The notes below the pieces were generated by a model that saw only the letters and a program-made list of their open reading frames with translations, was not told where the DNA came from and searched no databases. From Candidatus Fonsibacter sp. (GTDB lineage: Bacteria > Pseudomonadota > Alphaproteobacteria > Pelagibacterales > Pelagibacteraceae): a DNA stretch of 53,262 nt. Every line of letters starts with the position of its first letter. The stretch's first letter is position 1. Shown piece by piece: positions 1 through 45,819 of the stretch. The translations under genes and the position numbers were made by a program. The stretch is from positions 1 to 53,262 of the forward strand of contig VERQ01000001.1 of the NCBI GenBank assembly GCA_018882565.1. The letters run 5' to 3'.

Positions 1-949
1 GGATTGGCAGCACGATTGCAACGCCTACTAAAATTATAATTAAAGATTCATTTGCACTTGATGCTTGAACAATCAACATTTGATCTGGAATAATGAATGG
101 GAAGAAACTGTAACCAAGTCCAATAAAACATAAGACTGCAATGACGGCTGTTTGCGCAAAAGGCAACCAACAATATTGATCATTTTTTAAAGGAAGTTTT
201 ATTAAAATCTGTCTCATCCATAATATTAAAATTCCGGTTAAAACAGGAATAGGTAACAAAAATAAAATATTTGGATAAGCAAACCATTTGCTAAAAATTC
301 TCTCACTTGCAAGTGGTGTTCCTAGGGAAACTAAGCCGATACAAAAAACTGCGCCCGCTAGGGAATATTTAGCCCAACGAATTGATTTTTTTTGCAGTTC
401 ATCTGATGTTTTCATGATCAACCAATTTGCACCAATCAAACAATAGCCAATTGCAAGAGATACACCAACTAAACAACTGAAAACAAAAGTTTCAACGGTA
501 AACTTAAAGCCGACAATATAAAAACCTAACATGTAACCTTGTGCTAAAGCGGTAAGTAATGAGCCTGCTGAAAATGCAGTGTCCCAATGTTTTTTATAAT
601 GATCTTTTGCTTTTGCTCTAAAATCAAATGCAACGCCTCTAAAAATTAATCCAATTAACATCAAAAAAACTGGTAGATACAAATTAGTTAAAATAATTCC
701 ATGCGCTAATGGAAATGCGATCAGTAAAATTCCAACTCCTAAAACTAACCAAGTCTCATTTGCATCCCAAAAAGGTCCTATCGATGCAATCATTGTATCT
801 TTGTTTTGTTTATTTTTTTCAAAGTAAGAAAGGATTCCAACGCCTAAATCATAACCATCGAGTAGACCGTAAATTAGCATAGAGAGTCCCATTAAAAAGG
901 CAAATAGATAAGGAAGACCTGGCCCACCGTGGAAAAAATAATCCATCAT
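1..949 (-). CDS. cydB: Cytochrome bd-type quinol oxidase subunit II (partial, C-terminus off window)
   Basis: Second membrane subunit of the bd/CIO quinol:O2 oxidoreductase. The frame is open from ATG at 949 to the window edge (about 316 codons; family usually 335-380), so only the C-terminus is missing. The N-terminal part shows GLLDGYDLGVG and then GPFWDANETWLVLGVG, hallmark CydB segments, followed by several hydrophobic helices. A second ATG lies one codon downstream. The start is one base from the cydA stop, and an AGGAG lies at the end of cydA, so the two are co-translated. Family assignment is secure; the heme type of the enzyme is not readable here. Confidence 0.95.
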   Translation of the reverse strand, partial: MMDYFFHGGPGLPYLFAFLMGLSMLIYGLLDGYDLGVGILSYFEKNKQNKDTMIASIGPFWDANETWLVLGVGILLIAFPLAHGIILTNLYLPVFLMLIGLIFRGVAFDFRAKAKDHYKKHWDTAFSAGSLLTALAQGYMLGFYIVGFKFTVETFVFSCLVGVSLAIGYCLIGANWLIMKTSDELQKKSIRWAKYSLAGAVFCIGLVSLGTPLASERIFSKWFAYPNILFLLPIPVLTGILILWMRQILIKLPLKNDQYCWLPFAQTAVIAVLCFIGLGYSFFPFIIPDQMLIVQASSANESLIIILVGVAIVLPI

Positions 950-950
950 C

Positions 951-2309
951 TTAAGCTCCTATAATAATTGATCTTCGTTGACCTGTTCTTGGATCGATTT
1001 CTTCTTTCGTGAATTCTTTATCTTTATTTTTTACAGCCATATAAAAAATGGTTGTGATGAATGCTGTAAGTAATAGAGCATACACCACTAAATATAAGGA
1101 TAATGAAAAAGCAATATGCGCACTTGGGGTTGTTGTAACCGCATCTTTTGTTTTTAAAAGTCCGTAAACTAAATAAGGCTGTCTACCGATCTCAGTTACG
1201 TACCAACCTGCAATAGTTGCAACCCATCCAGAGAAAGTCATATAAAAAACAGCTTTTAAAAAAAGTTTTGGAAATTCTTTTTTTCGTAAAATGTAATAAA
1301 TGCCCGTCCAAGAAATAAAAAGCATTAAAAAACCAACTCCCACCATAATTCTAAATGAATAGAAAATAGGTTTTACCGGAGGATTATCTTTAAAACTATT
1401 TAAACCCTTCACTTCACCATCTTTAGAATGAGTTAAAATGATGCTGGTTAAATTTGGAATTTCTATGCTGTAAAGATTTTTTTTATTAGCCTCATCAGGA
1501 ATAGCAAACAAAACTAGTGGAACATTTTTTTGTGTGTTCCAAAGTCCTTCCATGGCTGCAACCTTTTGTGGCTGATGTTTTAAAGTATTTAGACCATGAA
1601 GATCGCCCATTAAAATTTGAACTGGGATTAAAAATGCGCCAGCAACTAATGCTACTCTTAACGCAGTAGTAACCGATGGACTTTTATAACCTTTTAAATA
1701 TCTAAAAGCAGAAATGCCTGCGATTAAAAATGCAGCTGTTAAACCTGATGCTAATAATTTATGTGTTAGTCGGTAAGGAAGTGATGGGTTAAATATCACC
1801 TGCATCCAATCTGTTACAATAGCTCGTCCATCGACCATAACAAAGCCAACTGGAGTTTGCATCCAGCTATTTAAAACCAAAATCCAGAAGGCAGAGAGTG
1901 TTGTGCCTGCTGCTACTAAAAAAGTTGCAAGATTATGTACCCAAGGTTTAACTTTTCTAAAACCAAATAACATCACTCCAAGAAATGTCGCCTCTAAAAA
2001 GAATGCTGTTAAAACTTCATAACCTAATAGTGGACCTGCCACGTTGCCAACCGTTGCCATAAACCCAGGCCAGTTGGTTCCAAATTGAAACGACATAGTT
2101 ATTCCGCTAACCACTCCTAATGCAAAACAAAGTGCAAATATTTTTGTCCAAAAGAAATAAATATCCATCCATTTGTAATTTTTAGTAGCGTTATAACGAA
2201 GTTTAAAAAATAATAAGAACCAACCTAAAGCAATAGTAATTGCCGGAAATAAAATATGAAAAGTAATATTGGCCGCAAACTGTATTCTTGAAAGAATTAG
2301 TGCATCCAT
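951..2309 (-). CDS. cydA: Cytochrome bd-type (CIO-like) quinol oxidase subunit I
   Basis: Quinol-oxidising, heme-carrying subunit of a terminal oxidase in the inner membrane. At 452 residues it is shorter than E. coli CydA, as expected for the short Q-loop form. Visible conserved features: an early His at residue 18, the two acidic residues in YEVLTAFFLEATF, the YRLTHK His, the Q-loop string HQPQKVAAMEGLW with its Lys and Glu, and GRQPYLVYGLLKT. The last motif matches the cyanide-insensitive (CioA) branch rather than E. coli CydA (known from the family, recalled, not searched). First gene of cydA-cydB; AGGAG lies upstream of the ATG. A second high-affinity oxidase would suit microoxic or stressed conditions (inference). 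Confidence 0.95.
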   Translation of the reverse strand: MDALILSRIQFAANITFHILFPAITIALGWFLLFFKLRYNATKNYKWMDIYFFWTKIFALCFALGVVSGITMSFQFGTNWPGFMATVGNVAGPLLGYEVLTAFFLEATFLGVMLFGFRKVKPWVHNLATFLVAAGTTLSAFWILVLNSWMQTPVGFVMVDGRAIVTDWMQVIFNPSLPYRLTHKLLASGLTAAFLIAGISAFRYLKGYKSPSVTTALRVALVAGAFLIPVQILMGDLHGLNTLKHQPQKVAAMEGLWNTQKNVPLVLFAIPDEANKKNLYSIEIPNLTSIILTHSKDGEVKGLNSFKDNPPVKPIFYSFRIMVGVGFLMLFISWTGIYYILRKKEFPKLFLKAVFYMTFSGWVATIAGWYVTEIGRQPYLVYGLLKTKDAVTTTPSAHIAFSLSLYLVVYALLLTAFITTIFYMAVKNKDKEFTKEEIDPRTGQRRSIIIGA

Positions 2310-2439: not shown

Positions 2440-3027
2440 TTAACTCACTAATTTAAATAATACTTCGTTTCTTTTTAAAAACCAAAGTGTCCAAGGAGCG
2501 TTGTAACCTGCATAAATTGCTGGCTCTTCAATCTTTAATCCTTTTTCTTTTATATAATTTCTAATCTTTGCTTCATTCTCTTTAATATTCTCATTACTAA
2601 ATAATCCTGAAAAAGTAATAACGATCACTTTAAGATCTGGATTATTTTTAATTTTGACACTTTGATTATCGGGTTGTGGCACATTTTGCAGATTAAATTT
2701 TTTAGGAACTACGAATGAAATACTCCATTTATTATTTCCTGAACTTTTCTGCATCACCGGAACAGTCATAGAGATGCTTTCTTTATTTTTATTTTCTCCA
2801 CTTATATATTTAAATAAAATTCTAAAACCTTTACCGATTGCATCATCACGCTCGCCTTCAGTTTCAACTGTTGCGGTTAGAAAATTAGTATATTGACGAA
2901 TTTCAAATTCGTTATCTTTTTTTATAATAGTATAATCGGGTTGTTCATTTGCCATAATATTTGTATTTAAAATTAATAGAACAAGTAGCGTTCTACTAAT
3001 TTGTTTAAAAAAATAATTTAAAATCAT
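2440..3027 (-). CDS. SOUL-family heme-binding-like protein, exported
   Basis: A 195-residue SOUL domain protein (HBP/SOUL superfamily). The N-terminus is a hydrophobic signal-like segment (about residues 5-26), followed by the family's YTIIKKDNEFEIRQY opening and the SISMTVPVMQ string. It ends near APWTLWFLKRNEV, also typical of the family. Most bacterial members lack a proven role; heme or tetrapyrrole binding is known for some eukaryotic ones. Its start overlaps the end of the upstream TerC gene by 23 bases, making it the last gene of a six-gene minus-strand run, so its product may work in the envelope with the TerC proteins (inference). Confidence 0.85.
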   Translation of the reverse strand: MILNYFFKQISRTLLVLLILNTNIMANEQPDYTIIKKDNEFEIRQYTNFLTATVETEGERDDAIGKGFRILFKYISGENKNKESISMTVPVMQKSSGNNKWSISFVVPKKFNLQNVPQPDNQSVKIKNNPDLKVIVITFSGLFSNENIKENEAKIRNYIKEKGLKIEEPAIYAGYNAPWTLWFLKRNEVLFKLVS

Positions 3028-3610
3028 CTCTAATTAAATCAACCGCCACCCAAAGAATGGATAAAATTCCAAGCCAACCCACCCATTTATGCTCTTTTAA
3101 ATATTTTGATATTGCATTAGCAAGAGTGATCATCATTATAATTGAAAGTGTAAGACCAAAAATAAGTAAAGTATAATTAGACTTTGCGGCACCTGCAACT
3201 GCGATGACATTATCAAAGCTAATAGTCATATCTGCAACTATAATAGTAAAAATAGCTCGCCAGTAATTTTTTTTATCGCTTTCTTTAATTAGCTGAGATT
3301 TATTTATTTTTGCTTGCTGTTTAGGATTATCTTTTAAAATATCCCCATAAAGTTTGTAAGCAATATAAAACAATAAAATTGCGCCAAAAGTTCTAACACC
3401 CTTGTATTGAAGAAAATAAGCAACCAAAACTGCAAATAGTATTCTAAATATAACTGCAAGGCTGGTTCCAATAACTAAAACTTTTTTTCTAATTTTAGGA
3501 TCAAATTGTGAGGCAACCAGACCAATAACAATTGCATTATCTGCTGATAAAATCATATCAATTAATATGATCTTTATCGTCAGCCTTAAATCATCAGCAA
3601 AAAATTCCAT
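3005..3610 (-). CDS. TerC/YjbE-family integral membrane protein (copy 1)
   Basis: A 201-residue TerC-family protein with about seven hydrophobic helices. It carries the paired acidic motifs of the family: ILSADNAIVIG near residue 20 and ADMTISFDNVIAVAG in the second half. TerC/Alx/MntY/YjbE proteins export Mn2+ or help metallate exported enzymes; specificity cannot be read from sequence. It lies 9 bases after a clearly related copy (3620-4219), so this is a tandem duplication, and overlaps the SOUL gene by 23 bases. No yybP-ykoY riboswitch is seen upstream, and there is no room for one within the cassette. Confidence 0.9.
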   Translation of the reverse strand: MEFFADDLRLTIKIILIDMILSADNAIVIGLVASQFDPKIRKKVLVIGTSLAVIFRILFAVLVAYFLQYKGVRTFGAILLFYIAYKLYGDILKDNPKQQAKINKSQLIKESDKKNYWRAIFTIIVADMTISFDNVIAVAGAAKSNYTLLIFGLTLSIIMMITLANAISKYLKEHKWVGWLGILSILWVAVDLIRDDFKLFF

Positions 3611-3619
3611 TGAGTAATT

Positions 3620-4219
3620 TTAAAGCAACAACTTAATATCGTCCCAAATTAAGTCAGCTGCAACCCAAAGGATTGATAACAATCCAAGCCATCCGATCCA
3701 TTTATATTTTTTAATATAAACAGAAATAGCATTTGCAAGTGTAACCATTAAAACAATGGCTAATGCTAGACCAAATATTAATAGCCCATAATTTGTGCCA
3801 GCAGCTCCTGCAACTGCAATCACGTTATCTAAACTTAAAGTGATATCTGCAATAATCACTGTCATTACAGCTTTTCTAAAATTACTTCTTTCAGATTCAG
3901 CAACTTGATACTTGCTAATGTCTTTTGTCTCTTCTTTTTTCTTTAAAATATCTACGTATAATTTATACGACACCCAGAGTAATAAAATTCCTCCAATTGT
4001 TCGAATGCCTTGGAACTGCATTAAATATGCAGTCATAGCTGAGAATATTATTCTAAAAAGTACAGCAAAACCTGTTCCGATGATTAAAACTTTTTTTCGA
4101 ATTGCTGGATCAAATTGCGATGCAGCCATTCCAATAATTACTGCGTTATCCGCTGATAACACAAGATCGATTAAAATAATTTGGATGGTAATCCGTATTT
4201 CTTCTGAGAAAAAATCCAT
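3620..4219 (-). CDS. TerC/YjbE-family integral membrane protein (copy 2)
   Basis: A 199-residue paralogue of the following gene. It shares the LSADNAVIIGMAASQFDP segment near residues 22-40 and DITLSLDNVIAVAGAAG in the second half, the acidic/Asn pairs thought to bind metal in TerC proteins. The least conserved part is the cytoplasmic loop between the halves (ILKKKEETKDISK here, a longer Lys/Gln-rich loop in copy 1), so the copies may have different partners or may form a heterodimer. ATG start; the upstream SUMF1-like gene ends 30 bases earlier. Substrate is unknown. Confidence 0.9.
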   Translation of the reverse strand: MDFFSEEIRITIQIILIDLVLSADNAVIIGMAASQFDPAIRKKVLIIGTGFAVLFRIIFSAMTAYLMQFQGIRTIGGILLLWVSYKLYVDILKKKEETKDISKYQVAESERSNFRKAVMTVIIADITLSLDNVIAVAGAAGTNYGLLIFGLALAIVLMVTLANAISVYIKKYKWIGWLGLLSILWVAADLIWDDIKLLL

Positions 4220-4249
4220 TAATGATGTGCTTATATAAATTAATTGTGG

Positions 4250-4933
4250 CTATTTTTCAAACGCACATCGAAAACCAACGTAAATGGCATAAAAATCTGC
4301 AGATTTAAATTGTGCTCCACTTTTAGTTGTGTTGCTTGAACTATACCACCAGGATGAACCTGCAGTTAAAGCAGAATTATCTTTTCTATCCTTTGTCCAC
4401 TCCCAAACATTTCCGCCCATTGCAACTAAACCATTAATCCCTTCTGGTAATTTTAAAACATCGTGATGTTTTCTGTAGGCAAGAAGATCTGTTGAATTCA
4501 TTTTCTCAGCTTTGTCACCACTTGGATAAGTGTAAGTTTTATTTTTCTCAAATACTTTTGAATCTAAAACTTGTGTGTAGGCTGCGGTTGACCATTCTGC
4601 AAAACTTGGCAGCCTTCCATTAATAAATTTACAATATTGCTCAGCCTCAAAATAACTAACATGAACTGCAGGTTCCGTTAAACTTTCAGGATTTTTTCCA
4701 TAAGGGGTTTTATAGTTCCAATTTTTTCTCTTCTCCCAACCTGCCCCATATTCATAACCAAAGCCTTGTTTTTCAGCCTCAGTTTTAAAATTTGTTTTAT
4801 TTGCAAAATTTGAAAATTCAGCAATAGTTACTTCATATTTTTGAATATAAAAATTATTTATTTTAACTTTAGGATTTTCAAAGGCAAAAAGGCTGGTTGG
4901 AATAATTAAAAATAGTAAAATTATTAGTCTCAT
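4250..4933 (-). CDS. SUMF1/formylglycine-generating-enzyme-like domain protein, secreted, no catalytic Cys pair
   Basis: About 227 residues if started at the ATG at 4933, which overlaps the upstream stop (TAATG) and gives a clean signal peptide; an in-frame longer start at 4993 would run through the channel gene and is rejected. The mature part has the C-type-lectin-like SUMF1 fold: YEVTIAEFSNFANKT, EPAVHVSYFEAEQYC, GRLPSFAEWSTAA, GGNVWEWTKDR and a terminal YVGFRCAFEK. In true formylglycine-generating enzymes two Cys follow the GGSW-type motif; here the corresponding stretch reads SSWWYSSSNTTKSG with none. It is therefore probably a binding or scaffolding protein, not an oxidase (inference). 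Confidence 0.85.
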   Translation of the reverse strand: MRLIILLFLIIPTSLFAFENPKVKINNFYIQKYEVTIAEFSNFANKTNFKTEAEKQGFGYEYGAGWEKRKNWNYKTPYGKNPESLTEPAVHVSYFEAEQYCKFINGRLPSFAEWSTAAYTQVLDSKVFEKNKTYTYPSGDKAEKMNSTDLLAYRKHHDVLKLPEGINGLVAMGGNVWEWTKDRKDNSALTAGSSWWYSSSNTTKSGAQFKSADFYAIYVGFRCAFEK

Positions 4934-5379
4934 TATCTTTTTTTTATCCTCCAGTATTTGCCCATTTCCATAAATAAGAAAGATGCCGACCACGTAATTA
5001 AAATAAGTCCAACCAAAGCCTCAACCCCTGTTAAGTAACGGAGATATCCGCTTGCAACTAAATCTCCGTAACCAAGTGTAGTATAAGTTACAAAAGATAA
5101 ATAAACGTAATCTAAAACAATTCCATGGTTTGCAGTTTTGCCAAATAAATTTCCTATTCCATCTAATTGCGCTGAATAATAATAGCCTAGACCAAATAAC
5201 CAAATTTCAACAACATGCGCTAAAAAAATTGTAAATACACAAATCAAAACTTTATAACTAGGAGCAATTTTTTTAGCTAAAGAAAGTCTTTTTGAAAGTT
5301 GAAAAAGCACTTCATAATGAATAACTATGGCCGCAAGAACTAGAGCAGTATTAATAATAAATACTAATAGTAAAGTCAT
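4933..5379 (-). CDS. Two-TM potassium channel (Ion_trans_2)
   Basis: A 148-residue minimal K+ channel. The selectivity filter TTLGYGD is at about residues 100-106, between a pore helix (DYVYLSFVTY) and an inner helix (GVEALVGLILITWSASFLF). Two extra hydrophobic helices occur in the N-terminal 65 residues. No cytoplasmic RCK/TrkA-N domain is attached, so gating cannot be predicted. Its start abuts the SDR stop and its stop overlaps the next start (TAATG), so it is translated as part of the 6102-2440 cassette. Kup is encoded further right in this window, so K+ handling is represented twice. Confidence 0.9.
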   Translation of the reverse strand: MTLLLVFIINTALVLAAIVIHYEVLFQLSKRLSLAKKIAPSYKVLICVFTIFLAHVVEIWLFGLGYYYSAQLDGIGNLFGKTANHGIVLDYVYLSFVTYTTLGYGDLVASGYLRYLTGVEALVGLILITWSASFLFMEMGKYWRIKKR

Positions 5380-6102
5380 TTAGGTTTCTAAATTAACTTT
5401 TCCACCATCCACATGAATAACTTGTCCAGTAATCCAACTACTATTTGAAGATAATAAAAATTTTGCAGTTTCGGCTAGATCTTCGGGCTGTCCTACTCTT
5501 TTCATTGCGTGCTTTAAAGGAATTTGTTCTGCAATTCGTGCATTATCTAAAATAGGTTTTGCCATTTTTGATTGGGCAATACTTGGTGCGATGCAATTAA
5601 CTCTAATTTTTGGAGCAAACTCTGCTGCAAGGGATGTGGTTAAACCTTGAATAGCTCCTTTTGCAGTTGAGATAACGGAGTGCATATTAAAACCTCGATC
5701 AACAGCAACTGTTGAAAATAATACAATTGCGCCATTATTTTCAGCAAGTTGTTTTTGTAATTTTTTTATAAAATGAATTGCGCCTGTTACATTTAAATTA
5801 AAGGTATTAATAAAATCTTCATGTTTCGTAGTTTGAAAAGATTTTAGAACAATAGATCCTACACAATAAGCAAAGCCAGAAACTTTATCATTTTCAACAT
5901 CTTTTAAACTTTCTTCAACGCTTTGAAAGTTTGCAACATCTGAGCATACTGAATAGCTCTGGTCATTTTCTGAAGCTAATTTTTTTAACTCTTCTTCGTT
6001 TCTGCCAATTAAATGACACTGAATACCATCTTTAGCAAAAGACCTTGCTAAAGCCGCACCTGTATAGCCTGTGGCTCCTACAATTATTATTTTTCCACTC
6101 AT
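5380..6102 (-). CDS. SDR-family oxidoreductase lacking the catalytic Tyr
   Basis: A 240-residue short-chain dehydrogenase/reductase fold protein. The N-terminus has the GATGYTGAALAR nucleotide-binding loop and the C-terminus ITGQVIHVDGGK. The catalytic Ser is present (about S130), but the usual YxxxK reads I144-S-T-A-K148, so Tyr is replaced by Ile while Lys is kept. I recall a group of alphaproteobacterial SDR homologues with the same change, so it is probably a real subfamily rather than decay. Substrate unknown. First gene of the cassette down to 2440; its stop abuts the K+ channel start. A divergent gene starts only 26 bases upstream. Confidence 0.88.
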   Translation of the reverse strand: MSGKIIIVGATGYTGAALARSFAKDGIQCHLIGRNEEELKKLASENDQSYSVCSDVANFQSVEESLKDVENDKVSGFAYCVGSIVLKSFQTTKHEDFINTFNLNVTGAIHFIKKLQKQLAENNGAIVLFSTVAVDRGFNMHSVISTAKGAIQGLTTSLAAEFAPKIRVNCIAPSIAQSKMAKPILDNARIAEQIPLKHAMKRVGQPEDLAETAKFLLSSNSSWITGQVIHVDGGKVNLET

Positions 6103-6128: not shown

Positions 6129-6500
6129 ATGTTTAAAGATTTAACTAACTGGCTTCATAACACCGCTACAGTTCTATTCGATGATACTAAAAATGATTTA
6201 CGGGCTTTGCCTAAAACTGTTCGTTTGCAAATTCTAATTGTTTTAAGTGCGCTTTGGTCTACTGCTTTTAGTATTTGGGTATTTACGGTTCCTATGTTTG
6301 TCTACGGATGGTTAGGGATGTTTTTAGGCCATTTGCTGATTATTTTTGTTGCCTATTATACGTTTAAACAATTTCAGGACATTAGAAGATTTAGAACGGA
6401 TCCTAATTACCACACGCCAACACGTTCAAGACAAAATCTTTGGATTAACGGTAAGCAAACAAAATTGCCAAAAGATGATCCGGGTGGCGAACACGAATAA
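6129..6500 (+). CDS. Small inner-membrane protein, unknown function
   Basis: 123 residues; I do not recognise a named family. An amphipathic N-terminus (about 1-35) is followed by two hydrophobic helices (about 36-58 and 63-82), then a basic, polar tail ending DDPGGEHE. The shape suggests a two-TM protein with both ends in the cytoplasm. It is divergent from the SDR gene with only 26 bases between starts and converges on the photolyase with 11 bases between stops. The ordinary ATG and normal codon use support a real gene. Confidence 0.7.
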   Translation: MFKDLTNWLHNTATVLFDDTKNDLRALPKTVRLQILIVLSALWSTAFSIWVFTVPMFVYGWLGMFLGHLLIIFVAYYTFKQFQDIRRFRTDPNYHTPTRSRQNLWINGKQTKLPKDDPGGEHE

Positions 6501-6526
6501 ATTAAAGTTTTTTAATTCGTATTTCT
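6493..6526. terminator. Weak bidirectional hairpin between convergent genes
   Basis: ACGAA and TTAAA on the left can pair with TTTAA and TTCGT on the right, with a short bulge and a T-rich loop, ending at about 6520; ATTTCTTTT follows on the plus strand. The hairpin overlaps the stop of the membrane-protein gene and the stop of the photolyase gene. AT-rich, so it could be chance. Confidence 0.4.
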
Positions 6527-8011
6527 TTTAATAAAATTATCCGCTGCAGAATAAATTCTTTTCTTTTTATCTTTATCCATTTTTTCTAAAATTTTAACCA
6601 TCATCGACAGTCTATAATTTTTACCAAAGAAAACTTTATTTTTTTCAATAAACTGCCAATACAATCCATCTAATGTATCGCACCAATCGCCTCGTTTAAA
6701 ATCACTCATTTTAAGTAAATAACTAGAAGCGCAGATATAGGGTTTAGTTGCAAAGATACCGCCATCACTAAATAAACCCATACCGTAAACATTGGGTGCC
6801 ATTACCCAATCCGATGAATCCACATACATTTCCATGAACCAACGATAAACAGATTTAGGTTCGATTCCTGAAAGATTCATAATGTTTGCAACCACCATCA
6901 AACGTTCAATGTGATGGCTCCAGCCATATTGAATACAGTTTTTAATGGTGTGATCTAAAGGATCAATTCCAGTGGTTCCTTCATACCAACTTTTAGTTAA
7001 TTTTTTATTATGTTTAAAAAAATTAGTATTTTCTAATTTGCTTTCATAATTTTGATAAATTCCGCGCATAAATTCACGCCATCCAATAATCTGTCTTAAA
7101 TATCCTTCAAGGCAATTCAATTTAACTTTATTTGTTTTTGCATAAGCTAAAGTCTCACTAACAATTTGTTCTGGGGTTAATAGTCCTAAGTTAATTAATG
7201 GACTTAACATGCTATGAAATAGAATATGAGATTTGTGCGATATAGCATCTTCAAAATCTCCAAATAAATTTAATTTATTTTTTAAAAAATCAAAATATAG
7301 ATTTAAAGTATCTTTTCGAGTGGTTGGAAAATTAAAGCTTTCAATTTCTCCTGGATGATCTAGAAAATTTTTCTCTAAAAACTTTTTTACATTTTCAGTA
7401 TGAGTTGTTTGTTTAAAGGTAATATGTTTTGGAATATTAACTTTTGGATCTAGTTTATTTCTATTATCTTCATCAAAACTCCACTTGCCTCCAAGCGGTT
7501 CATTCTTACTCTTCATTAAAATGTTAAATTTAATTCTTTGAATTTTATAAAAATTAGCCATGAATGGCTTTTTATTAGTTTGCAAATACTCTTTGAAATC
7601 TCCTCGACTTGATAAAAACATTGGAGATTTAATAAAATTAAATTGAATTTTATTTTTATTAAAAAAATTAATTAATTGCTTTTCAAAAAACTTATCTTCA
7701 ACTTCAAATAAATCTACATGCTTGGTCTTAATTTTATTTAAAAAATTTAGAATTTTATCCTCATAACTTTTCTTAAATAATTCATGCTTACAATCAAAAT
7801 AGGTTAGAGAAAAATCAGCTTTTTTTAATTCATCGGCGTAAGAGCGCATGGCTGATAAAAATAATAATATCTTCTGACGGTGATGTTTGACGTAAGTACA
7901 TAACTGATAATCTTCAGCCATCATAAAATGATGATCTTTAAAACTTTTTAAATGGATAGGTGAGAAAAGTTGGTTGCCTAAAATGATAAAGGCTTTTGCT
8001 TTATTGATCAT
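6512..8011 (-). CDS. Cryptochrome/photolyase-family protein (PhrB/FeS-BCP-like) with Fe-S ligands largely missing
   Basis: Deoxyribodipyrimidine photolyase-related protein, about 499 residues from the ATG at 8011 (the longer frame needs a TTG at 8020). The N-terminus (ILGNQLF) and the C-terminal FAD region (SHHIERLMVVANIMN, VMAPNVYGMGLFSDGGIFATKPY) match the bacterial (6-4) photolyase group. In that group four Cys bind a 4Fe-4S cluster. Aligned by eye, the first (about 15 residues before HH) is Pro, and the CxxC after KMSD is replaced by FKRGD with the following loop shortened; only Cys447 (counting from the TTG) might match the fourth. Third gene of the SOS operon, 12 bases after umuC. Likely repairs UV lesions, but light or cofactor use is inferred. 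Confidence 0.85.
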   Translation of the reverse strand: MINKAKAFIILGNQLFSPIHLKSFKDHHFMMAEDYQLCTYVKHHRQKILLFLSAMRSYADELKKADFSLTYFDCKHELFKKSYEDKILNFLNKIKTKHVDLFEVEDKFFEKQLINFFNKNKIQFNFIKSPMFLSSRGDFKEYLQTNKKPFMANFYKIQRIKFNILMKSKNEPLGGKWSFDEDNRNKLDPKVNIPKHITFKQTTHTENVKKFLEKNFLDHPGEIESFNFPTTRKDTLNLYFDFLKNKLNLFGDFEDAISHKSHILFHSMLSPLINLGLLTPEQIVSETLAYAKTNKVKLNCLEGYLRQIIGWREFMRGIYQNYESKLENTNFFKHNKKLTKSWYEGTTGIDPLDHTIKNCIQYGWSHHIERLMVVANIMNLSGIEPKSVYRWFMEMYVDSSDWVMAPNVYGMGLFSDGGIFATKPYICASSYLLKMSDFKRGDWCDTLDGLYWQFIEKNKVFFGKNYRLSMMVKILEKMDKDKKKRIYSAADNFIKRNTN

Positions 8012-8023
8012 ATGGATCAATAA

Positions 8024-9301
8024 TTAATGTGCCCTAACGGTTGGGGCAAGTTTTATAAAAGAAGTGTCGATTTTAGATGAATAACGTCTGTTCATTTTTG
8101 AGTTATTATTCAGTCTTGCAGCTGCAACGGTGACTGCGCCTCTGCCAAATTTATTATTCGTTTGATCAATGACTTTCATCAAATGATCTAAATTTAAATT
8201 CTGATCTGAAAATAAGTTTTTTTCATAATGATCTTTAGGTTTTAGGTCTCCAAAAATAACCCCAGCTTTGCTGTAAAAATAACCTTTAATATAAATATTT
8301 TCTAAAGCTTTTGCGCACACATTGGTGAGTTCTAAAGTGTTATTGGTTGCAATGGGTAAATCTATTTTTTGAACGCGTGATACGTAATCTTTTTTAAATC
8401 TACTGGTTTTAATAAATACATAAACAGATTTTACAATTAACCCCTCGGATCTAATTCGCTCTGCTGCAGTCATACAATGTTGAACGACTGCTTCTTTTAA
8501 ATCATTCAGTTCAGTAATAGTTTTGCCAAAGGATCTTGATACGCAGCAATTCTTCCTTGCAACATATTGAAAGTTTAATGGAAAACAACTGATGCCATTA
8601 AGTTCATGAATCGTCTTTAATACAACCACACTACTATTTTTTCTCACCCAATAATTATCTACATATTTTAACTGATGAGCATTATAAAAATTATTATTAT
8701 TAAAAAATTTAGAAAGTTGTCTACCAATCCCCCAAACCTCTTGTACAGGGAATGTTTTTAAAATTTCATCTACTTCAGTTTTGTCTTTGGTAATAAATTC
8801 CTCAACACCTAATTTATTTTTCTTTGCAACGTGATTTGCAATTTTTGCAAGTGTTTTAGTATTTGCAGCTCCTATTGAAACTGGAATGCCAGTCCATTGC
8901 AAAATTACTTTTCTAATGTGCAAAATATATTCTTGAACATTATCCATTTTAATATTGGTTAAATCTAAGAATGCTTCATCGATTGAATAAAATTCAATGT
9001 CAGGTGAAAAATTTTTTAATATTTTCATCACCCGTCGTGACATATCACCATACAATTCGTAATTAGATGAAAATACGGAAACTTTATATTTATCAATGAG
9101 TGGCTTTGCTTTAAAATAAGGCTCACCCATTTTAATGCCTACTTGTTTTGCCTCCGTTGATCTTGAAATAATACAACCATCATTATTGGATAAAACTACA
9201 ACAGGTTTTCTTCTCAAGTCCGGTCTAAATAATCTCTCACAAGAAACATAAAAAGAATTGCAATCAACTAAGGCAATAATTCTATTATTAATGGGCTGCA
9301 T
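8024..9301 (-). CDS. umuC: Y-family DNA polymerase V catalytic subunit UmuC
   Basis: 425 residues, close to E. coli UmuC (422). It opens with ALVDCNSFYVSCERLF (metal-binding Asp at about residue 13), then SNNDGCIISRSTEAKQVGIKMG, and has YSIDEAFLDLT with the catalytic acidic pair, a GIGRQLSKFF helix-hairpin-helix segment and the UmuC-type C-terminal domain. With processed UmuD it would perform error-prone translesion synthesis at stalled forks. It overlaps umuD by 14 bases and is followed after 12 bases by the photolyase gene, so all three should share the LexA-regulated transcript. Confidence 0.96.
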   Translation of the reverse strand: MQPINNRIIALVDCNSFYVSCERLFRPDLRRKPVVVLSNNDGCIISRSTEAKQVGIKMGEPYFKAKPLIDKYKVSVFSSNYELYGDMSRRVMKILKNFSPDIEFYSIDEAFLDLTNIKMDNVQEYILHIRKVILQWTGIPVSIGAANTKTLAKIANHVAKKNKLGVEEFITKDKTEVDEILKTFPVQEVWGIGRQLSKFFNNNNFYNAHQLKYVDNYWVRKNSSVVVLKTIHELNGISCFPLNFQYVARKNCCVSRSFGKTITELNDLKEAVVQHCMTAAERIRSEGLIVKSVYVFIKTSRFKKDYVSRVQKIDLPIATNNTLELTNVCAKALENIYIKGYFYSKAGVIFGDLKPKDHYEKNLFSDQNLNLDHLMKVIDQTNNKFGRGAVTVAAARLNNNSKMNRRYSSKIDTSFIKLAPTVRAH

Positions 9302-9665
9302 GAATAATATAAGTTACAATCCCCCAAATATTCACATCTGAGTTTTCATTAATTAAAATCTTCTCTGCTCTGTTTTTGATGTAAAAATTATTATTCTCTT
9401 TAATAATATTTTTAACGACTAATTCGTTATTAAAATTAATAATTGCAATGCAATCATTTTTTAAATTCAAACTTCGATCCACCACTAATAAATCTCCATT
9501 GATAATTTTGTGTTCAGTCATGGAGTTACCTTGCACACGAATTAGAAAAGTTGCTGGAGGATTTTTTATTAACTCACTGTTTAAATCTATTTCATCTTGA
9601 ACATAGTCTGTGGCTGGTGATGGAAAGCCCGCTGATACTTTCTGCAATATTACTGGTATTTTCAT
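9288..9665 (-). CDS. umuD: UmuD-like S24 self-cleaving protein of polymerase V
   Basis: A 125-residue LexA/UmuD-type S24 peptidase domain without an HTH. The self-cleavage site is SAG-FPSPATDYV, cut expected between Ala12 and Gly13 (E. coli UmuD has Cys-Gly). The catalytic Ser is S48 in GNSM and the Lys K85 in ELVVKN, matching Ser60/Lys97 of E. coli. RecA* would stimulate cleavage to UmuD', which joins UmuC as Pol V. Only a short N-terminal arm precedes the cleavage site, shorter than in E. coli. First gene of the operon; a LexA box lies 10-24 bases upstream of its ATG. Confidence 0.95.
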   Translation of the reverse strand: MKIPVILQKVSAGFPSPATDYVQDEIDLNSELIKNPPATFLIRVQGNSMTEHKIINGDLLVVDRSLNLKNDCIAIINFNNELVVKNIIKENNNFYIKNRAEKILINENSDVNIWGIVTYIIHAAH

Positions 9666-11587: not shown

Positions 11588-13003
11588 ATGAGCAAGCAGC
11601 TTGGTTTTAAGATCAAAACAGCGCGTAGAAAGCTAAATATTAGCCAAGGTGATTTGTCAAAAAAACTTGAGATTTCGCCAAGTTATTTAAATCTAATTGA
11701 ATCTGGCAAAAGAAAAGTGAGTGCTGATTTACTTATCAAAGCCTCTGAAATCTTAAATCTTGATCTTAAAAAATTATCAACGGATGATAACCTAAACCTT
11801 GTTCATGATCTTCAAGAACTGTTAAGCGATAATTTATTTGAAGATTTGGATATTACTAATTTAGAAGTTAAAGATTTAATAGAAACCAATCCACTAGTTT
11901 CAAAAGCGCTTATTCGATTAGGCGATGTTTATAGAAAAAAGAATTCTGAAGTTTATGATAAACTTGAAGTCATCTCTGGTGAAAATGTTGCAAATCCTAA
12001 AGCAACTTTTCCAGGGGAAGTTGTTTCTGATTTTTTACAAGAATATCATAATTATTTCCCAAAATTAGAAGAGTATGCAAATAAAATTTTTAGTCAGGTA
12101 AATAGAAATTTTAGAACACGTCATGTTCTATTAGTTGAGTATTTAAAAAAACATCACAAGATTGATGTTGTCGATGTAGTTCCAAAGAATGATGAATTCT
12201 TTTTAAAGCGATATGTTCCTGAAAAAAAAACACTTTATTTATCTGATTACTTAACTCTCGATACAAAAAAAATATACTGTGCAGGACAAATTGTGCAAGC
12301 AGAAGCTTTAGATTTAATAGAAAGCTATCTTAAAGATTATAATTTTCCCTCTGAAACTGCAAAAAAACTTACAACGATTTCTTTAATTAATTATACCGCT
12401 GCTGCAATTTTAATGCCTTACAAATTATTTTATGATGAATGCAAAAAACATCGTTATGATTTAGAATTACTGCAACATACCTTTTCAGTATCCTTTGAAC
12501 AAGTTGCTCACCGCGTTACTTGTTTGCAAGATCTTAAAATGAAAGGAATTCCATTTCATATGTTAAGAACAGATATTGCAGGCAATATTTCAAAACGATT
12601 ATCATTATCAGGAATTCAAATTCCTCGTTACGGTGGAGCTTGTCCGAGATGGAATATTCACTCTGCTTTTATGTTACCTGGAAAAATCCACAGTGCATTA
12701 TCTAAAATGCCCGATGGTGAAAAATATATATGTATTGCAAGAACTATTGAAAAAGGAATAGGTCGACATGGAGTATATAGAAGTATTTTAAGTATCGGCT
12801 TAGGATGTCAGGCTAAGTATGCAAAAGATTTTATTTATGCTGACACTTTGAATATTCAAGACGAAGACTCTGCTATTGCAATTGGTGTAAATTGTAGAAC
12901 TTGTCCTAGAATGGATTGCCAGCAAAGAGCCTTTCCACCAATTAATAAAAATTTAGATATTAATTTAAATAACAGAGGGGCATCTGCCTACGTTAGTAAT
13001 TAA
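11588..13003 (+). CDS. ScfR/RamB-type short-chain fatty acyl regulator (XRE HTH + ImmA/IrrE-like + DUF2083)
   Basis: 471 residues. An XRE-type HTH occupies about residues 5-60 (KTARRKLNISQGDLSKKLEIS), followed by a central ImmA/IrrE-like domain without a clear HExxH, and a C-terminal DUF2083-type domain ending in GVNCRTCPRMDCQQRAFPP, a Cys cluster typical of this family. Known members (RamB, MccR, ScfR) sense acyl-CoA or acetate metabolism and control glyoxylate-shunt or propionate genes. Divergent from the aceA operon. No SD precedes the ATG, so the transcript may be leaderless. Its 3' end overlaps the convergent dehalogenase gene by 11 bases. Confidence 0.9.
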   Translation: MSKQLGFKIKTARRKLNISQGDLSKKLEISPSYLNLIESGKRKVSADLLIKASEILNLDLKKLSTDDNLNLVHDLQELLSDNLFEDLDITNLEVKDLIETNPLVSKALIRLGDVYRKKNSEVYDKLEVISGENVANPKATFPGEVVSDFLQEYHNYFPKLEEYANKIFSQVNRNFRTRHVLLVEYLKKHHKIDVVDVVPKNDEFFLKRYVPEKKTLYLSDYLTLDTKKIYCAGQIVQAEALDLIESYLKDYNFPSETAKKLTTISLINYTAAAILMPYKLFYDECKKHRYDLELLQHTFSVSFEQVAHRVTCLQDLKMKGIPFHMLRTDIAGNISKRLSLSGIQIPRYGGACPRWNIHSAFMLPGKIHSALSKMPDGEKYICIARTIEKGIGRHGVYRSILSIGLGCQAKYAKDFIYADTLNIQDEDSAIAIGVNCRTCPRMDCQQRAFPPINKNLDINLNNRGASAYVSN

Positions 13004-13880
13004 AATTAGAATATTTAGATAAAAATTTTACAAGTTCTTGTAAGGTTTGTTTTGGTGCTTCCTCTGCTATAAAATGCTTACAATTAAAGCCTTTTCCTTC
13101 AACTTTTTTAGTAGTGTACTTCTGCCAGACTTTTAAAGGTTTAAATTTTCTACCCACTCTTCCATTCTTGCCCCATAAAACTTGCACTGGAATATTGAGT
13201 TTTTTACTTAAATCTTTTTTATCATGAACAAGATCAATGGTTGCTCCGGCACGATAATCTTCACAACTGGAATGTATTCTTTTGTAATCTTTAAAATATT
13301 TTAAATAGTTTTTTTCAAAACCTTTAAAATTAAATCCTCCTGACCATTTTTTAAGACAGTAATTTAGCCAAGCTTTTGGATCTTTAGCGATAAAATTTTC
13401 TGGAATAAACTTAGGTTGAATTAAAAAAAACCAATGAAAATAATTAGTTGCAAAATCTTGATCTGTTGCATTGTACATATCAAGTGTTGGACAAATATCC
13501 ATTACGCATAAGGCAACAACTTTATCTCTGTAATCACGTGCTAGTCTATGTGCAACACGGCCACCACGATCATGCCCGCCAAGTAAAAATTTTTGATAAC
13601 CGATATTGCTCATTAATTGAACCATATCTTTTGCCATTTCTCTTTTTGAATAATTAAGATGTTGGCTATCACTTTGGATTACAAAACTTTGCCCATAACC
13701 TCTAAGATCTGGAAGGATGACAGTGAAATTTTTTGAAAGTTCATCTGCAATTTTATGCCACATATAATGATTTTGCGGATAACCGTGCAATAATAATACC
13801 GGTGGTCCAAAACCACCTATACGATAAAAAATTTTTCCTTTATTTACTTTTTGAAATTTTTTTTCAAAACTTTTGAACAA
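12993..13880 (-). CDS. Haloacetate (fluoroacetate) dehalogenase-like alpha/beta hydrolase
   Basis: About 295 residues from a TTG at 13880; no ATG fits before the conserved LLLHGYPQ, and GGAAA lies upstream. Compared with fluoroacetate dehalogenase from memory, every key residue is present: nucleophile D104 in GGHDRGGR, carboxylate-binding R105 and R108, acid D128, halide-binding H149, W150 and Y209, and His269 in KHFIAEEAP. Such enzymes hydrolyse haloacetates to glycolate. It is the last gene after phaB-phaA-enoyl-CoA hydratase, four bases after the previous stop. An epoxide hydrolase is the main alternative, but that family normally needs lid tyrosines rather than the HW pair. Confidence 0.85.
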   Translation of the reverse strand: MFKSFEKKFQKVNKGKIFYRIGGFGPPVLLLHGYPQNHYMWHKIADELSKNFTVILPDLRGYGQSFVIQSDSQHLNYSKREMAKDMVQLMSNIGYQKFLLGGHDRGGRVAHRLARDYRDKVVALCVMDICPTLDMYNATDQDFATNYFHWFFLIQPKFIPENFIAKDPKAWLNYCLKKWSGGFNFKGFEKNYLKYFKDYKRIHSSCEDYRAGATIDLVHDKKDLSKKLNIPVQVLWGKNGRVGRKFKPLKVWQKYTTKKVEGKGFNCKHFIAEEAPKQTLQELVKFLSKYSNFNY

Positions 13881-13884
13881 GAAA

Positions 13885-14634
13885 TTATTTCCACTCAGGT
13901 TTTATTTTTTCAAAAAAACTTTTAATACCAATATTTTTATTTTCACTATCAAGAAGTTTATAAAAAGTTTGTCTCTCATCTTTTAACGAAGCATCTTTAT
14001 TAATTAATCTTTTAATCTCAACTAAACTTGAAAGTGGTTTTTCTGAAATGGATTTTAATATTTTATTTGAACCTTCTTTAAATTCATCTGCTTTTAAAAC
14101 AACACTAACTATTCCTATATTGTGAGCTTGCCCCGCTGTAATCATCTCTCCTGTCATGCACAGATAATTTGCATTATATTTTCCAGCATATCGCTTTAAT
14201 CTTTGGGTTCCGCCAATCCCTGGAATTAATCCTAAATTTATTTCAGGTTGAGCAAACTTTGCATTTTCCGATGCAATAATAAAATCGCAAATGAGTGCAA
14301 GTTCCATTCCACCGCCTAAAGCATAACCTTCCACTAATGCAATAACTGGTTTTTTAATATTATAAATTTCATCAAAAGCATCAAATAACTTTTTCTCAGC
14401 CGCAGTATTTTTATTTAAAGATTGCAATTCTTTAATATCTGCACCTGGTGAAAATAATTTTTGATTGCCTTCAATTGCAATACATTTAATGGAACTATCT
14501 TGATCAAAGTTTGTAAGGGCTTGTAGAATTTCTTTAGATGTTTCAATATTTAAAGAATTTTTATCTACAACTCTATCAATTTGAACAAAACCTACAGCTT
14601 GTTCGCTTCTAACTTTAATATTCTTAAAGTCCAT
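13885..14634 (-). CDS. Enoyl-CoA hydratase (crotonase family)
   Basis: 249 residues. FSPGADIKEL gives the first oxyanion-hole segment, ALGGGMELALICDF has Glu111, and FAQPEINLGLIPGIGGTQRL has Glu131; both Glu are retained, so a true hydratase of short-chain enoyl-CoA is likely. It could feed fatty-acid degradation, or interconvert crotonyl-CoA and 3-hydroxybutyryl-CoA next to the PHB enzymes. It lies 8 bases after phaA and 4 before the dehalogenase gene in the same operon. No SD precedes the ATG, suggesting coupling to phaA. Confidence 0.92.
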   Translation of the reverse strand: MDFKNIKVRSEQAVGFVQIDRVVDKNSLNIETSKEILQALTNFDQDSSIKCIAIEGNQKLFSPGADIKELQSLNKNTAAEKKLFDAFDEIYNIKKPVIALVEGYALGGGMELALICDFIIASENAKFAQPEINLGLIPGIGGTQRLKRYAGKYNANYLCMTGEMITAGQAHNIGIVSVVLKADEFKEGSNKILKSISEKPLSSLVEIKRLINKDASLKDERQTFYKLLDSENKNIGIKSFFEKIKPEWK

Positions 14635-14642
14635 GAAGGAGA

Positions 14643-15839
14643 TTATTTATGATCAATAAAATTACGCTCAATACACATCGCAATTCCCATTCCACCACCA
14701 ATACAAAGGGTAGCAAGACCTCTTTTTGAATGAGTTTTGATCATTTCATGAAGCAAAGTTACTAAAATTCTAGCTCCTGATGCACCAATTGGATGACCAA
14801 TTGCAATAGCGCCACCGTTCACATTTACTTTATCAACGGTCCAGCCCATTTCTTTATTTACTGCAATGGCTTGTGCTGCAAATGCTTCGTTTGCTTCAAT
14901 TAAATCTAATTCATCTTCACCCCAGCCTGCTTTTTTAAGTGCAAGACGTGAAGCTGGAATTGGACCTGTTCCCATAATAGATGGGTCCACTCCACACACT
15001 GCCCATGAAACTATTTTTGCAAGCGGCTCAATACCAAGCGTTTTTGCAGTTTTTCCTGACATTAAACTAACCGCTGCAGCGCCATCATTTAATCCTGATG
15101 CGTTTCCAGCTGTAACTGATCCGTCTTTTTTAAATGCTGGTTTTAAAACTTCTAGTTTTTCAATGGTCGTTCCATCTTTTGGATACTCGTCTTTATCAAA
15201 CACCACGTCCTGTTTTTTAACTTTAACAGTAATTGGAATAATTTCATCTTTGAATTTTTTTCCTTTAATTGCATCAATTGCTTTTCTTTGAGAAGCTGCT
15301 GCAAATGCATCTTGATCTTTTCTTGTAATTTGAAATTTTTGTGCAACGTTTTCTGCAGTTACACCCATGTGATATTGATTGTAAACGTCCCAAAGTCCAT
15401 CCACAATCATGGAGTCTTGTAATTTACCATCACCTAATTTCACTCCATTTCTAATATTAATGAAATGGGGAGCATTGCTCATACTTTCTTGTCCACCTGC
15501 AATAACGATATTTGCATCGCCACATTTTATTGAATTATAACCAAAGGCAACTGAAGCAAGTCCTGAACCACAAAGTTGATTAATTGTTGTTGCAGTTTTT
15601 TCAACTGGTATGCCTGCGTGAATTGCAGCTTGTCGTGCAGGATTTTGACCAACGCCTGCTGCTAAAATCTGACCCATGTAAACAGTGTCAACTTGTTCAG
15701 GTTTAATTTCTGATTTTTCTAAAACTTTTTTAATTACTTCCGCTCCTAATTGCGGAGCTGTCATAGAGGATAGTGAACCACCAAAAGATCCTACCGCCGT
15801 TCGAACTGCACTTGTTATTACTACATCATTATCAGTCAT
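14643..15839 (-). CDS. phaA: Acetyl-CoA acetyltransferase (beta-ketothiolase)
   Basis: Condenses two acetyl-CoA to acetoacetyl-CoA, the first step of PHB synthesis (also reversible thiolysis). 398 residues, the usual length. Nucleophile Cys90 lies in NQLCGSGLASV; the His is in GGAIAIGHPIGASG, and the second Cys in LCIGGGMGIAM near the C-terminus. AAGGAG lies upstream of the ATG. Second gene of the operon, 36 bases after phaB; the order phaB-phaA differs from the common phaA-phaB. Confidence 0.95.
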   Translation of the reverse strand: MTDNDVVITSAVRTAVGSFGGSLSSMTAPQLGAEVIKKVLEKSEIKPEQVDTVYMGQILAAGVGQNPARQAAIHAGIPVEKTATTINQLCGSGLASVAFGYNSIKCGDANIVIAGGQESMSNAPHFINIRNGVKLGDGKLQDSMIVDGLWDVYNQYHMGVTAENVAQKFQITRKDQDAFAAASQRKAIDAIKGKKFKDEIIPITVKVKKQDVVFDKDEYPKDGTTIEKLEVLKPAFKKDGSVTAGNASGLNDGAAAVSLMSGKTAKTLGIEPLAKIVSWAVCGVDPSIMGTGPIPASRLALKKAGWGEDELDLIEANEAFAAQAIAVNKEMGWTVDKVNVNGGAIAIGHPIGASGARILVTLLHEMIKTHSKRGLATLCIGGGMGIAMCIERNFIDHK

Positions 15840-15875
15840 TTTAATTTATTTCTCCTTTTGGTTATAAATTTTTTG

Positions 15876-16598
15876 TTACTGCATGTACTGGCCACCATTT
15901 ATTGAAAAGGTAGCGCCGGTAATGAAGCCTGCTTTATCACTTACTAAATAACTTGCCAAGGCGGCAATTTCTTCAGGCTCTGCGAGTCTGCCAACAGGAA
16001 TTTGACCCACAATTCCCTTTAAAATTGTTGGATCAATTTTTTTAACCATATCTGTTCCAACATATCCTGGGGCAATTACGTTTACTGTTATTCCTTTATT
16101 TGCATTCTCTAATGCTAGTGCCTTTGAAAATCCAATAATACCCGCCTTAGCCGCCGAGTAATTTGTTTGACCCACTTGTCCTTTCAAACCATTAATAGAA
16201 CTTATTGAAACAATCCTACCAAATCCTTTTGCTCTCATTTTTTCAATCACGTTTCGGCAGATATTAAAAAGAGAATTTAAATTTGTGTTAATGACAGAAT
16301 TCCACTCTTCAGGGTTCATTTTATGTAAAAAACGATCTTTAGTAATCCCAGCATTGTTAACGACTATTTCTATGTCGCCATATTTTTTTTCAACTTCTCC
16401 AACTGCAGCTTTGCAACTTTCAAAATAGGAAACGTCTGATTTGATAACTTCAATTCCACTTTGTTTAGAATAGGCTTGGGCAGTTTCATCTTTACCAACG
16501 TAAGTAGAGACAACTTTATAACCTTCGTCTTTTAATTTTTTTGCAATTGCAGCGCCGATTCCTCTTGTGCCACCTGTAACTAAAGCAACTTTGGACAT
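15876..16598 (-). CDS. phaB: Acetoacetyl-CoA reductase
   Basis: NADPH-dependent reduction of acetoacetyl-CoA to (R)-3-hydroxybutyryl-CoA, the PHB monomer. 240 residues, SDR fold: TGGTRGIG near residue 8, NNAG at 81-84, Ser134, Tyr147 and Lys151 in NYSAAKAG, and the terminal ITGATFSINGGQYMQ typical of PhaB. GGGGGT precedes the ATG. First gene of phaB-phaA-ech-dehalogenase. FabG is the main alternative, but the C-terminus and the location next to phaA favour PhaB. Confidence 0.93.
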   Translation of the reverse strand: MSKVALVTGGTRGIGAAIAKKLKDEGYKVVSTYVGKDETAQAYSKQSGIEVIKSDVSYFESCKAAVGEVEKKYGDIEIVVNNAGITKDRFLHKMNPEEWNSVINTNLNSLFNICRNVIEKMRAKGFGRIVSISSINGLKGQVGQTNYSAAKAGIIGFSKALALENANKGITVNVIAPGYVGTDMVKKIDPTILKGIVGQIPVGRLAEPEEIAALASYLVSDKAGFITGATFSINGGQYMQ

Positions 16599-16676
16599 TA
16601 TTGACCCCCAATGAATTAAATATGAGGAAAATTATACTAAAGGGATTTTTAAAATACTAGAGAAATTCTTTAGGAT

Positions 16677-16728
16677 TTTAGAGGGGTTTGGTCTAAATAA
16701 GGGGATATTTGGAACCAAACCCTCTAAA
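16677..16728. terminator. Long hairpin downstream of the phasin gene
   Basis: TTTAGAGGGGTTTGGT (16677-16692) pairs with ACCAAACCCTCTAAA (16714-16728) with one extra G, enclosing a 21-base loop. It sits between the phasin stop and the phaB promoter region. The loop is large for a canonical terminator and the T-tract is modest, so it may instead protect the abundant phasin mRNA 3' end (inference). Confidence 0.65.
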
Positions 16729-16747
16729 TTTTCGTTAAAAACTAATA

Positions 16748-17203
16748 TTAGTTTTTAACTGAAGCTTTTTTACCTTCGTCTTCGATTACTTTTTTGATTT
16801 CTGTTAAACCTTCTAAAAGTCTTTTATTAAGAATTTCAAAAGATTCTTTTGCAGTTTTTTCTGCAATTTTAGAGAAATCAGTAGCAATATTTTGAGCTTC
16901 AACGATTGATTCTTGGATCAATTCGATAGATTTACCAGCTGATTGCTGAGGGTTTCCCTTAGCTAATTCAGAAGTAGCATCTTTAGCGCTAGAAATAGCT
17001 TTGTTAAGTACTTCTATTTGCTTTTTAGCAAGCGCATTGTAGCCTTCAAATAATACTTTAGATGCATTAGCAAATGTTTCTAAAGTTTTTTTCTGAGCAT
17101 TGATTAAATTCTCAGAATTACCATCTACTGTTGGTACTTTAAGAGCTGCTAACATCTTTTGAAAATCAAAGAATTCAAAAGGATTGTTTATGTTTGTCAT
17201 CAT
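16748..17203 (-). CDS. phaP: Phasin (PHB granule-associated protein)
   Basis: 151 residues (or 150 from the second ATG; both sit behind AAGGAG). It opens with NNPFEFFDFQKML, the amphipathic start common to phasins, followed by long Ala/Lys/Glu-rich helices (about 30-145) that form coiled coils. Phasins coat PHB granules and set their size and number. Monocistronic, divergent from phaC, with TTGCA-type palindromes between, and a strong SD, consistent with an abundant protein repressed by PhaR when no polymer is present. Confidence 0.9.
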   Translation of the reverse strand: MMTNINNPFEFFDFQKMLAALKVPTVDGNSENLINAQKKTLETFANASKVLFEGYNALAKKQIEVLNKAISSAKDATSELAKGNPQQSAGKSIELIQESIVEAQNIATDFSKIAEKTAKESFEILNKRLLEGLTEIKKVIEDEGKKASVKN

Positions 17204-17241
17204 TGTTTACTCCTTGTTTTATTTAATGAGGTATATTTATG

Positions 17242-17252
17242 TTGCACTGCAA
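17242..17252. promoter_or_regulatory. Candidate PhaR operator near phasin
   Basis: TTGCACTGCAA is a perfect palindrome around a central C, 39-49 bases upstream of the phasin ATG. Characterised PhaR proteins bind TGC/GCA-type palindromes, and phaR is encoded at 19263. Assignment is by pattern and position. Confidence 0.6.
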
Positions 17253-17300
17253 TATATTTCAAGTCTAAAAATCATAAAATAAGCTAAATTACTGTTTTTA

Positions 17301-17341
17301 TTGACTTTTTTCTTTTGCATATGCAATATATTAATATTGCA
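17301..17341 (+). promoter_or_regulatory. Candidate phaC promoter overlapped by PhaR-type palindromes
   Basis: TTGACT at 17301-17306 is a good -35; AT-rich CAATAT/TATATT hexamers lie 17-21 bases on. Two overlapping palindromes cover the -10: TTGCATATGCAA (17315-17326) and TGCAATATATTAATATTGCA (17322-17341). Occupation by PhaR would block the promoter. The phaC ATG is 60 bases downstream, with GAG just before it. Confidence 0.6.
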
Positions 17342-17400
17342 GAAGCACATAGAGGTTATTACTCTTAGGCTAATTATTAGGCTATTATTAAAGAGCAAAA

Positions 17401-45788: not shown

Positions 45789-45819
45789 TTTATAAATTTA
45801 AAATTAGTAATTAATATTA

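Follow-up and report, generated by a model that had tools for sequence, protein, structure and literature searches.

Six adjoining genes on the minus strand (positions 2440 to 6102) of a contig of Candidatus Fonsibacter sp. (NCBI GenBank assembly GCA_018882565.1, contig VERQ01000001.1; all 53,262 nucleotides analysed here are referred to as the window) encode an SDR-fold protein, a K+ channel, a SUMF1-like protein, two TerC proteins and a SOUL-domain protein. The cassette does not look like a conserved system, but like a collection of ordinary stress and metal-transport genes gathered by a DNA-photorepair locus. The interpretation that we favour, at somewhat better than even confidence, is that freshwater SAR11 bacteria (LD12/Fonsibacter-type) have here a young operon confined to their lineage, which has grown by accretion beside a photorepair locus with genes for the photolyase-related protein DPRP and for UmuDC. 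The content and order of five of the genes, all but the channel, are conserved in close relatives, their counterparts are scattered elsewhere, and they evolve under purifying selection. The genes of the run are as follows.

5380-6102, minus strand: SDR-fold protein, gene 1 of the run; PF13561 (adh_short_C2), 153 bits
4933-5379, minus strand: K+ channel; PF07885 (Ion_trans_2), 38.4 bits, cut-off 22.5
4250-4933, minus strand: SUMF1-like protein, with its ATG inside TAATG; PF03781 (FGE-sulfatase), 106.7 bits, cut-off 23.3
3620-4219, minus strand: TerC1, a YjbE-type membrane protein; PF03741 (TerC), cut-off 27.8
3005-3610, minus strand: TerC2, YjbE-type, the tandem paralogue of TerC1; PF03741 (TerC)
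2440-3027, minus strand: SOUL-domain protein; PF04832, 161.8 bits; 23-base overlap with TerC2

The locus was compared with those of twelve congeners (G001 to G012) and with a wider set of 61 SAR11 relatives. In three of the twelve congeners (G001, G003 and G004) the order SDR-SUMF1-TerC1-TerC2-SOUL is whole and lacks the channel, with junctions of -1, 28-30, 9-10 and -23 bases, the SDR and SUMF1 genes overlapping directly as TAATG. A partial set, SDR-TerC1-SOUL, is present in G012; TerC2 and SOUL lie together in G005, with SUMF1 on a different contig, and G007 has a SOUL gene with no adjoining TerC. The remaining congeners, several of which are less than 80% complete, gave no SUMF1 or SOUL match. 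Across the 61 genomes, the SDR is found in 19 (at E<=1e-40), SUMF1 in 12, SOUL in 11 and the channel in four. In five one-contig genomes of other genera (G015, G020, G028, G032 and G036) those parts that are present lie at least about 17 kb from each other, the nearest pair being SOUL and a TerC gene, about 17 kb apart in G036, and the set is not found together in any of the other SAR11 genera searched. At the level of the class, SOUL genes occur in 37 of 289 alphaproteobacterial genomes, 35 of them outside the family of the host; in all 35 out-of-family loci (397,449 bases, several clipped by contig ends) the TerC model gave no match. Neither these loci nor the SAR11 relatives show the same genes together in a distant lineage. 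The first-pass annotation had regarded the six genes as one translationally linked unit, and had named random assembly in a neighbourhood search as an outcome that would speak against it. A five-gene operon-like unit is indeed likely, given the near-identical junctions in three congeners, but a six-gene functional system is unsupported; by the neighbourhood criterion, the grouping survives at the level of the genus, but fails in its wide version.

The five genes other than the channel show ratios of nonsynonymous to synonymous divergence (dN/dS) of 0.05-0.15 in comparisons with G001, G003 and, where present, G012, and are working genes under purifying selection; the ratios for DPRP and UmuC are 0.02-0.05. 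Synonymous divergence (dS) from G001 differs among the genes, being 0.22 for TerC2, 0.39 for SOUL and 0.99 for the SDR, and the locus is thus a mosaic, of which pieces have been exchanged separately. TerC1 and TerC2 are old enough for congeners to have kept different copies. A recombinant origin of the single TerC gene in G012 was considered and rejected, as this gene tracks TerC1 nearly throughout, the two copies being tied only at residues 126-150.

All six proteins score above the Pfam cut-off of their named family, and both the minus-strand reading frames and the junctions reported in the first-pass annotation (0, TAATG, 30, 9 and -23 bases from SDR to SOUL) are exact. The tight spacing by itself is unremarkable in the host genome. 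For the 24 other gaps between same-strand genes of the window the median is 6 bases, 14 of them measure 35 bases or less, and similarly tight gaps are found in the loci of most relatives. What stands out somewhat is how long the run is, as tight runs elsewhere in the window comprise at most three genes. This general tightness supports the main rival explanation, a functionally mixed operon, in which a streamlined SAR11 genome packs unrelated genes closely together and only the transcript is shared. We consider this a tentative but serious alternative. The scattering of the components in other genera, the mosaic divergence and the channel dropped between two coding sequences, neither of which is broken, all agree with such an operon, whereas a run twice as long as the longest other one, the placement of two predicted exported proteins on either side of the two TerC proteins, and the light or DNA-repair neighbours that the SDR and SOUL genes each have elsewhere speak against it.

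The channel contains the canonical filter TTLGYGD. Its hydropathy profile shows three hydrophobic segments, which disagrees with the two-transmembrane (two-TM) protein of the first-pass annotation. It is intact at the SDR/SUMF1 junction in the present genome only; in the other three of the four relatives that contain a channel, it is not at this junction. The best matches are to other Alphaproteobacteria (43% identity, 113 bits), as compared to 71-73 bits for matches within SAR11, and related channels are present in 39 of the 289 alphaproteobacterial genomes. The GC content of the gene (31.1%, against 31.5% for the window) is uninformative on a foreign origin. In G012 the gap between SDR and TerC1 (locus L037, around 8130-8224) contains a short stretch like the start of the channel gene, with identity at 18 of 24 bases, a level that is reached by one of 564 other gene starts, although the stretch was sought post hoc. 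It hints at a decayed channel 5' end, and hence at a channel that is older than the present genome and is decaying in some lineages. The channel appears to be a rider, incidental to the unit. A dedicated six-part metal/redox envelope module, of which the K+ channel is a working part, is very improbable in view of the three congeners that have no channel at the same junction, the rarity and different placement of the channel among the 61 relatives, and the absence of TerC near SOUL in the class loci. Such a module would account for the TerC pair and the putatively exported SUMF1-fold protein, for the SUMF1 relatives that lie beside a glutaredoxin and a DsbD/CcdA-like protein (L046 and L051), and for a locus in which TerC2-SOUL has genes for a CobW-family protein and for a regulator of the Fur family in its vicinity (L038).

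The better channel matches outside SAR11 are also consistent with a freshwater adaptation island, in which the channel and the neighbouring cydAB genes are recent gains that tune K+ handling and respiration, independently of the other five genes. Among the 61 SAR11 relatives searched, cytochrome bd subunit I (cydA) is found in the present genome only, with its best matches in other Alphaproteobacteria (61-67%), and PMC6018831 describes LD12 as lacking trkAH and using other K+ transport. A gene for a Kup-type K+ transporter in the window (39766-41652) is in line with this description. The possible decayed channel in G012, however, suggests loss as well as gain, and because cydAB is located at the contig end, misassembly is possible. 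We regard such an island as rather unlikely.

The surroundings of the SOUL and SDR genes in other genomes point to light and DNA damage. In all three other SAR11 SOUL loci examined, the SOUL gene is divergent from UmuD-UmuC and has a GFA-domain gene downstream. In the class survey, a photolyase or DPRP gene is present in six of the 35 SOUL windows (L127, L135, L139, L146, L149 and L150) and in none of 40 control windows (800,000 bases, drawn from 18 of the 35 genomes; Fisher test, 0.008). Another SOUL window (L128) contains an amine oxidase-DUF1365-DUF3833 group, and the comparison of the whole set with the controls (1/40) gives 0.017. Both values were obtained after a look at the data, as a first comparison (7/35 against 1/20) gave 0.13 and the controls were then doubled to 40. 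Exclusion of the model seeds L146 and L150 leaves photolyase in 4/33 windows against 0/40 (0.04). We take the link between SOUL and photolyase to be real, but to be that of a minority of loci; no literature linking bacterial SOUL to photolyase was found at the level of listings. The neighbours of the SDR were counted in 10 loci out of 14 non-LD12 matches. DPRP lies within 0.7 kb of the SDR in five of these loci, and a DUF3833-CMAS-DUF1365-amine-oxidase cluster adjoins it in four, all from marine SAR11 (L055, L056, L059 and L060), the neighbours being confirmed by Pfam in L055, which also has a TspO-family neighbour, and named by similarity in the other loci. In LD12 only DPRP is left beside the SDR. 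The guess of a metal or redox envelope module in the first-pass annotation agrees broadly with the TerC pair and with the two proteins predicted to be exported, whereas the genes found next to SDR and SOUL rather indicate light or DNA-damage stress.

Three of the proteins show unusual sequence features. The SDR has a Rossmann SDR fold by profile and lacks the catalytic tyrosine of classical SDR proteins, the place of which in the YxxxK motif is taken by isoleucine; all 15 SAR11 orthologues compared share this isoleucine, as does L149. The SUMF1-like protein is putatively exported, on the basis of an N-terminal hydrophobic segment in its hydropathy profile. It contains only two cysteines, at 101 and 223 from the ATG, located in YC and GFRC motifs that are invariant in 12 of 12 sequences, and there is no cysteine in its counterpart of the catalytic stretch of the formylglycine-generating enzyme (FGE), which we take to be the place of the catalytic cysteine pair. 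The Tyr-less SDR and the SUMF1 fold without its cysteine pair were thus correctly noted from the present copy, but these oddities are fixed subfamily traits in the relatives and not peculiar to it. The SUMF1 fold binds divalent cations. Outside the genus, a glutaredoxin gene and a DsbD/CcdA-like gene are next to the SUMF1-like gene in two of seven loci (L046 and L051), a look-alike pair is within about 3.5 kb in two further loci, and in two of the seven the SUMF1-like gene overlaps a methyltransferase gene; Pfam was run on one locus of each kind. The glutaredoxin and DsbD/CcdA-like neighbours are a further, independent hint that the SUMF1-like protein may have a redox role. The SOUL protein has an N-terminal signal, recognised by eye, and is predicted to be exported. 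Vertebrate SOUL has an axial histidine, and as there is no histidine among its 195 residues, the present protein does not have a His-ligated heme.

TerC1 and TerC2 match PF03741 with 146 and 141 bits, respectively, and the YjbE model TIGR03717 with 177 and 168 bits (cut-off 134.8). The TerC proteins of Bacillus subtilis (MeeF, MeeY and YjbE) export Mn2+ at the Sec translocon and help to load Mn into exported enzymes (PMC10550928). By analogy, TerC1 and TerC2 are likely to transport Mn2+ outward on behalf of exported proteins. In the mechanism that we propose, the SDR-fold and SOUL proteins would belong to a response to light or oxidative stress, and the two TerC proteins would release Mn2+, or an ion of similar kind, at the Sec translocon. 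The metal would thereby reach the outer side of the membrane, the putative place of action of the exported SUMF1-fold and SOUL proteins, and co-transcription would let the set rise jointly in response to light or to oxidative stress. The K+ channel would have entered at the SDR/SUMF1 junction, after which some lineages kept it while in others it was lost or decayed. A stronger version, in which the TerC pair is wired to its own exported clients (the SUMF1-fold and the histidine-free SOUL protein), metalated on leaving the cell under light stress in a self-contained metal-delivery operon, is improbable in our judgement.

Several observations weigh against the accretion of a stress operon at the photorepair locus. 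The SOUL-photolyase link is confined to a minority of windows, with controls from about half of the genomes, and TerC and SUMF1 have no link to light genes elsewhere. Gene order is generally preserved between these close genomes, so that its conservation is weak proof of shared function. No Mn-responsive yybP-ykoY riboswitch was detected: the window contains no Rfam match at gathering score, and no relevant one at E<=1 around the unit. According to PMC10550928, loss of YjbE in B. subtilis has no effect on fitness or growth in the conditions tried. The anti-sigma factor ChrR is above the cut-off in none of 37 SAR11 genomes, including that of the host (89% complete), and regulation is therefore not of the Rhodobacter RpoE-ChrR kind; control by RpoE-ChrR was rejected on these grounds. 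No other RNA was found upstream of the unit either; one match to U4 snRNA (E 0.12, far below gathering score) is taken as chance. A promoter scan was uninformative, as it gave 23 promoter-like sites whereas shuffled sequence gave 32. Terminator-like sites number 7 against 2.9, and were left unused, as the three minus-strand ones in the cassette fall inside the TerC1 and TerC2 coding sequences.

The genes that surround the unit are the following.

6129-6500, plus strand: two-TM protein of 123 aa, divergent from the SDR
6512-8020, minus strand: DPRP, photolyase-related protein; context, outside the unit
8024-9665, minus strand: UmuC and UmuD, named by eye; context
1-2309, minus strand: cydAB, cydB named by eye; context, on the laterally variable side of the locus

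The 123 aa gene adjoining the SDR is kept in G001, G003, G004 and G012. On the other side, the flank downstream of SOUL (2310-2440; the same spot in L034, L035, L037 and L041) differs between congeners and looks like a variable spot. It is occupied by cydAB in the present genome, by aquaporin, LMWPc and Fur-like genes in G003, by a look-alike set in G001, and by a chromate-transporter-like gene with a 64 aa open reading frame (ORF) in G012 and G007, all names except those of the L034 aquaporin and LMWPc having been given by eye. Elsewhere in the window, an FTR1 iron permease gene adjoins a rubrerythrin-VIT1 fusion (45141-46797), a possible iron import/export pair. A PHA-type cluster (12993-19745) includes PhaC and, by eye, ORFs for a thiolase, a reductase, a phasin and a PhaR-like protein; the words polyhydroxy and PHB are absent from the main text of the LD12 isolate paper (PMC6018831).

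If the TerC-client mechanism holds, exported clients would be named for the TerC pair in a very abundant freshwater bacterium, and the locus would offer a simple test of co-translocational metalation. Otherwise it is an example of gene-by-gene operon assembly within one genus in streamlined genomes, as shown by the channel inserted between coding sequences, by the loss of one or the other TerC gene of the tandem pair in different congeners, and by the variable flank downstream. In both cases, the locus calls for caution in taking tight SAR11 spacing as proof of shared function. No literature was found that combines Fonsibacter with TerC, or formylglycine-generating with Pelagibacter.

Each component can be compared with a known system. 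The SOUL protein has a full-length SOUL domain like heme-binding protein 2/SOUL (5gqq and 4ayz), but is bacterial, carries an N-terminal signal and lacks histidine. The best structural relatives of the SUMF1-like protein are CalU17 and, by profile, SUMF2. With SUMF2/pFGE and CalU17 it shares the fold family over the whole domain; unlike FGE, it has no catalytic cysteine pair and is a putatively exported bacterial protein, in which the GFRC and YC cysteines are kept. In Rhodobacter sphaeroides, the SDR family member RSP_1087 is part of a singlet-oxygen operon with RSP_1090/1091 (PMC7074977). The marine SAR11 loci resemble that operon in having an SDR-family member beside amine-oxidase and CMAS-type genes, but the likeness is one of neighbourhood and not of regulon, as no ChrR is above the cut-off in SAR11. 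The TerC pair differs from MeeF, MeeY and YjbE of B. subtilis in being without a Mn riboswitch and in its tandem arrangement within an operon with SOUL and SUMF1; the proteins belong to the same Pfam family, and the Mn2+-export mechanism described for B. subtilis (PMC10550928) would suit neighbours with signal peptides.

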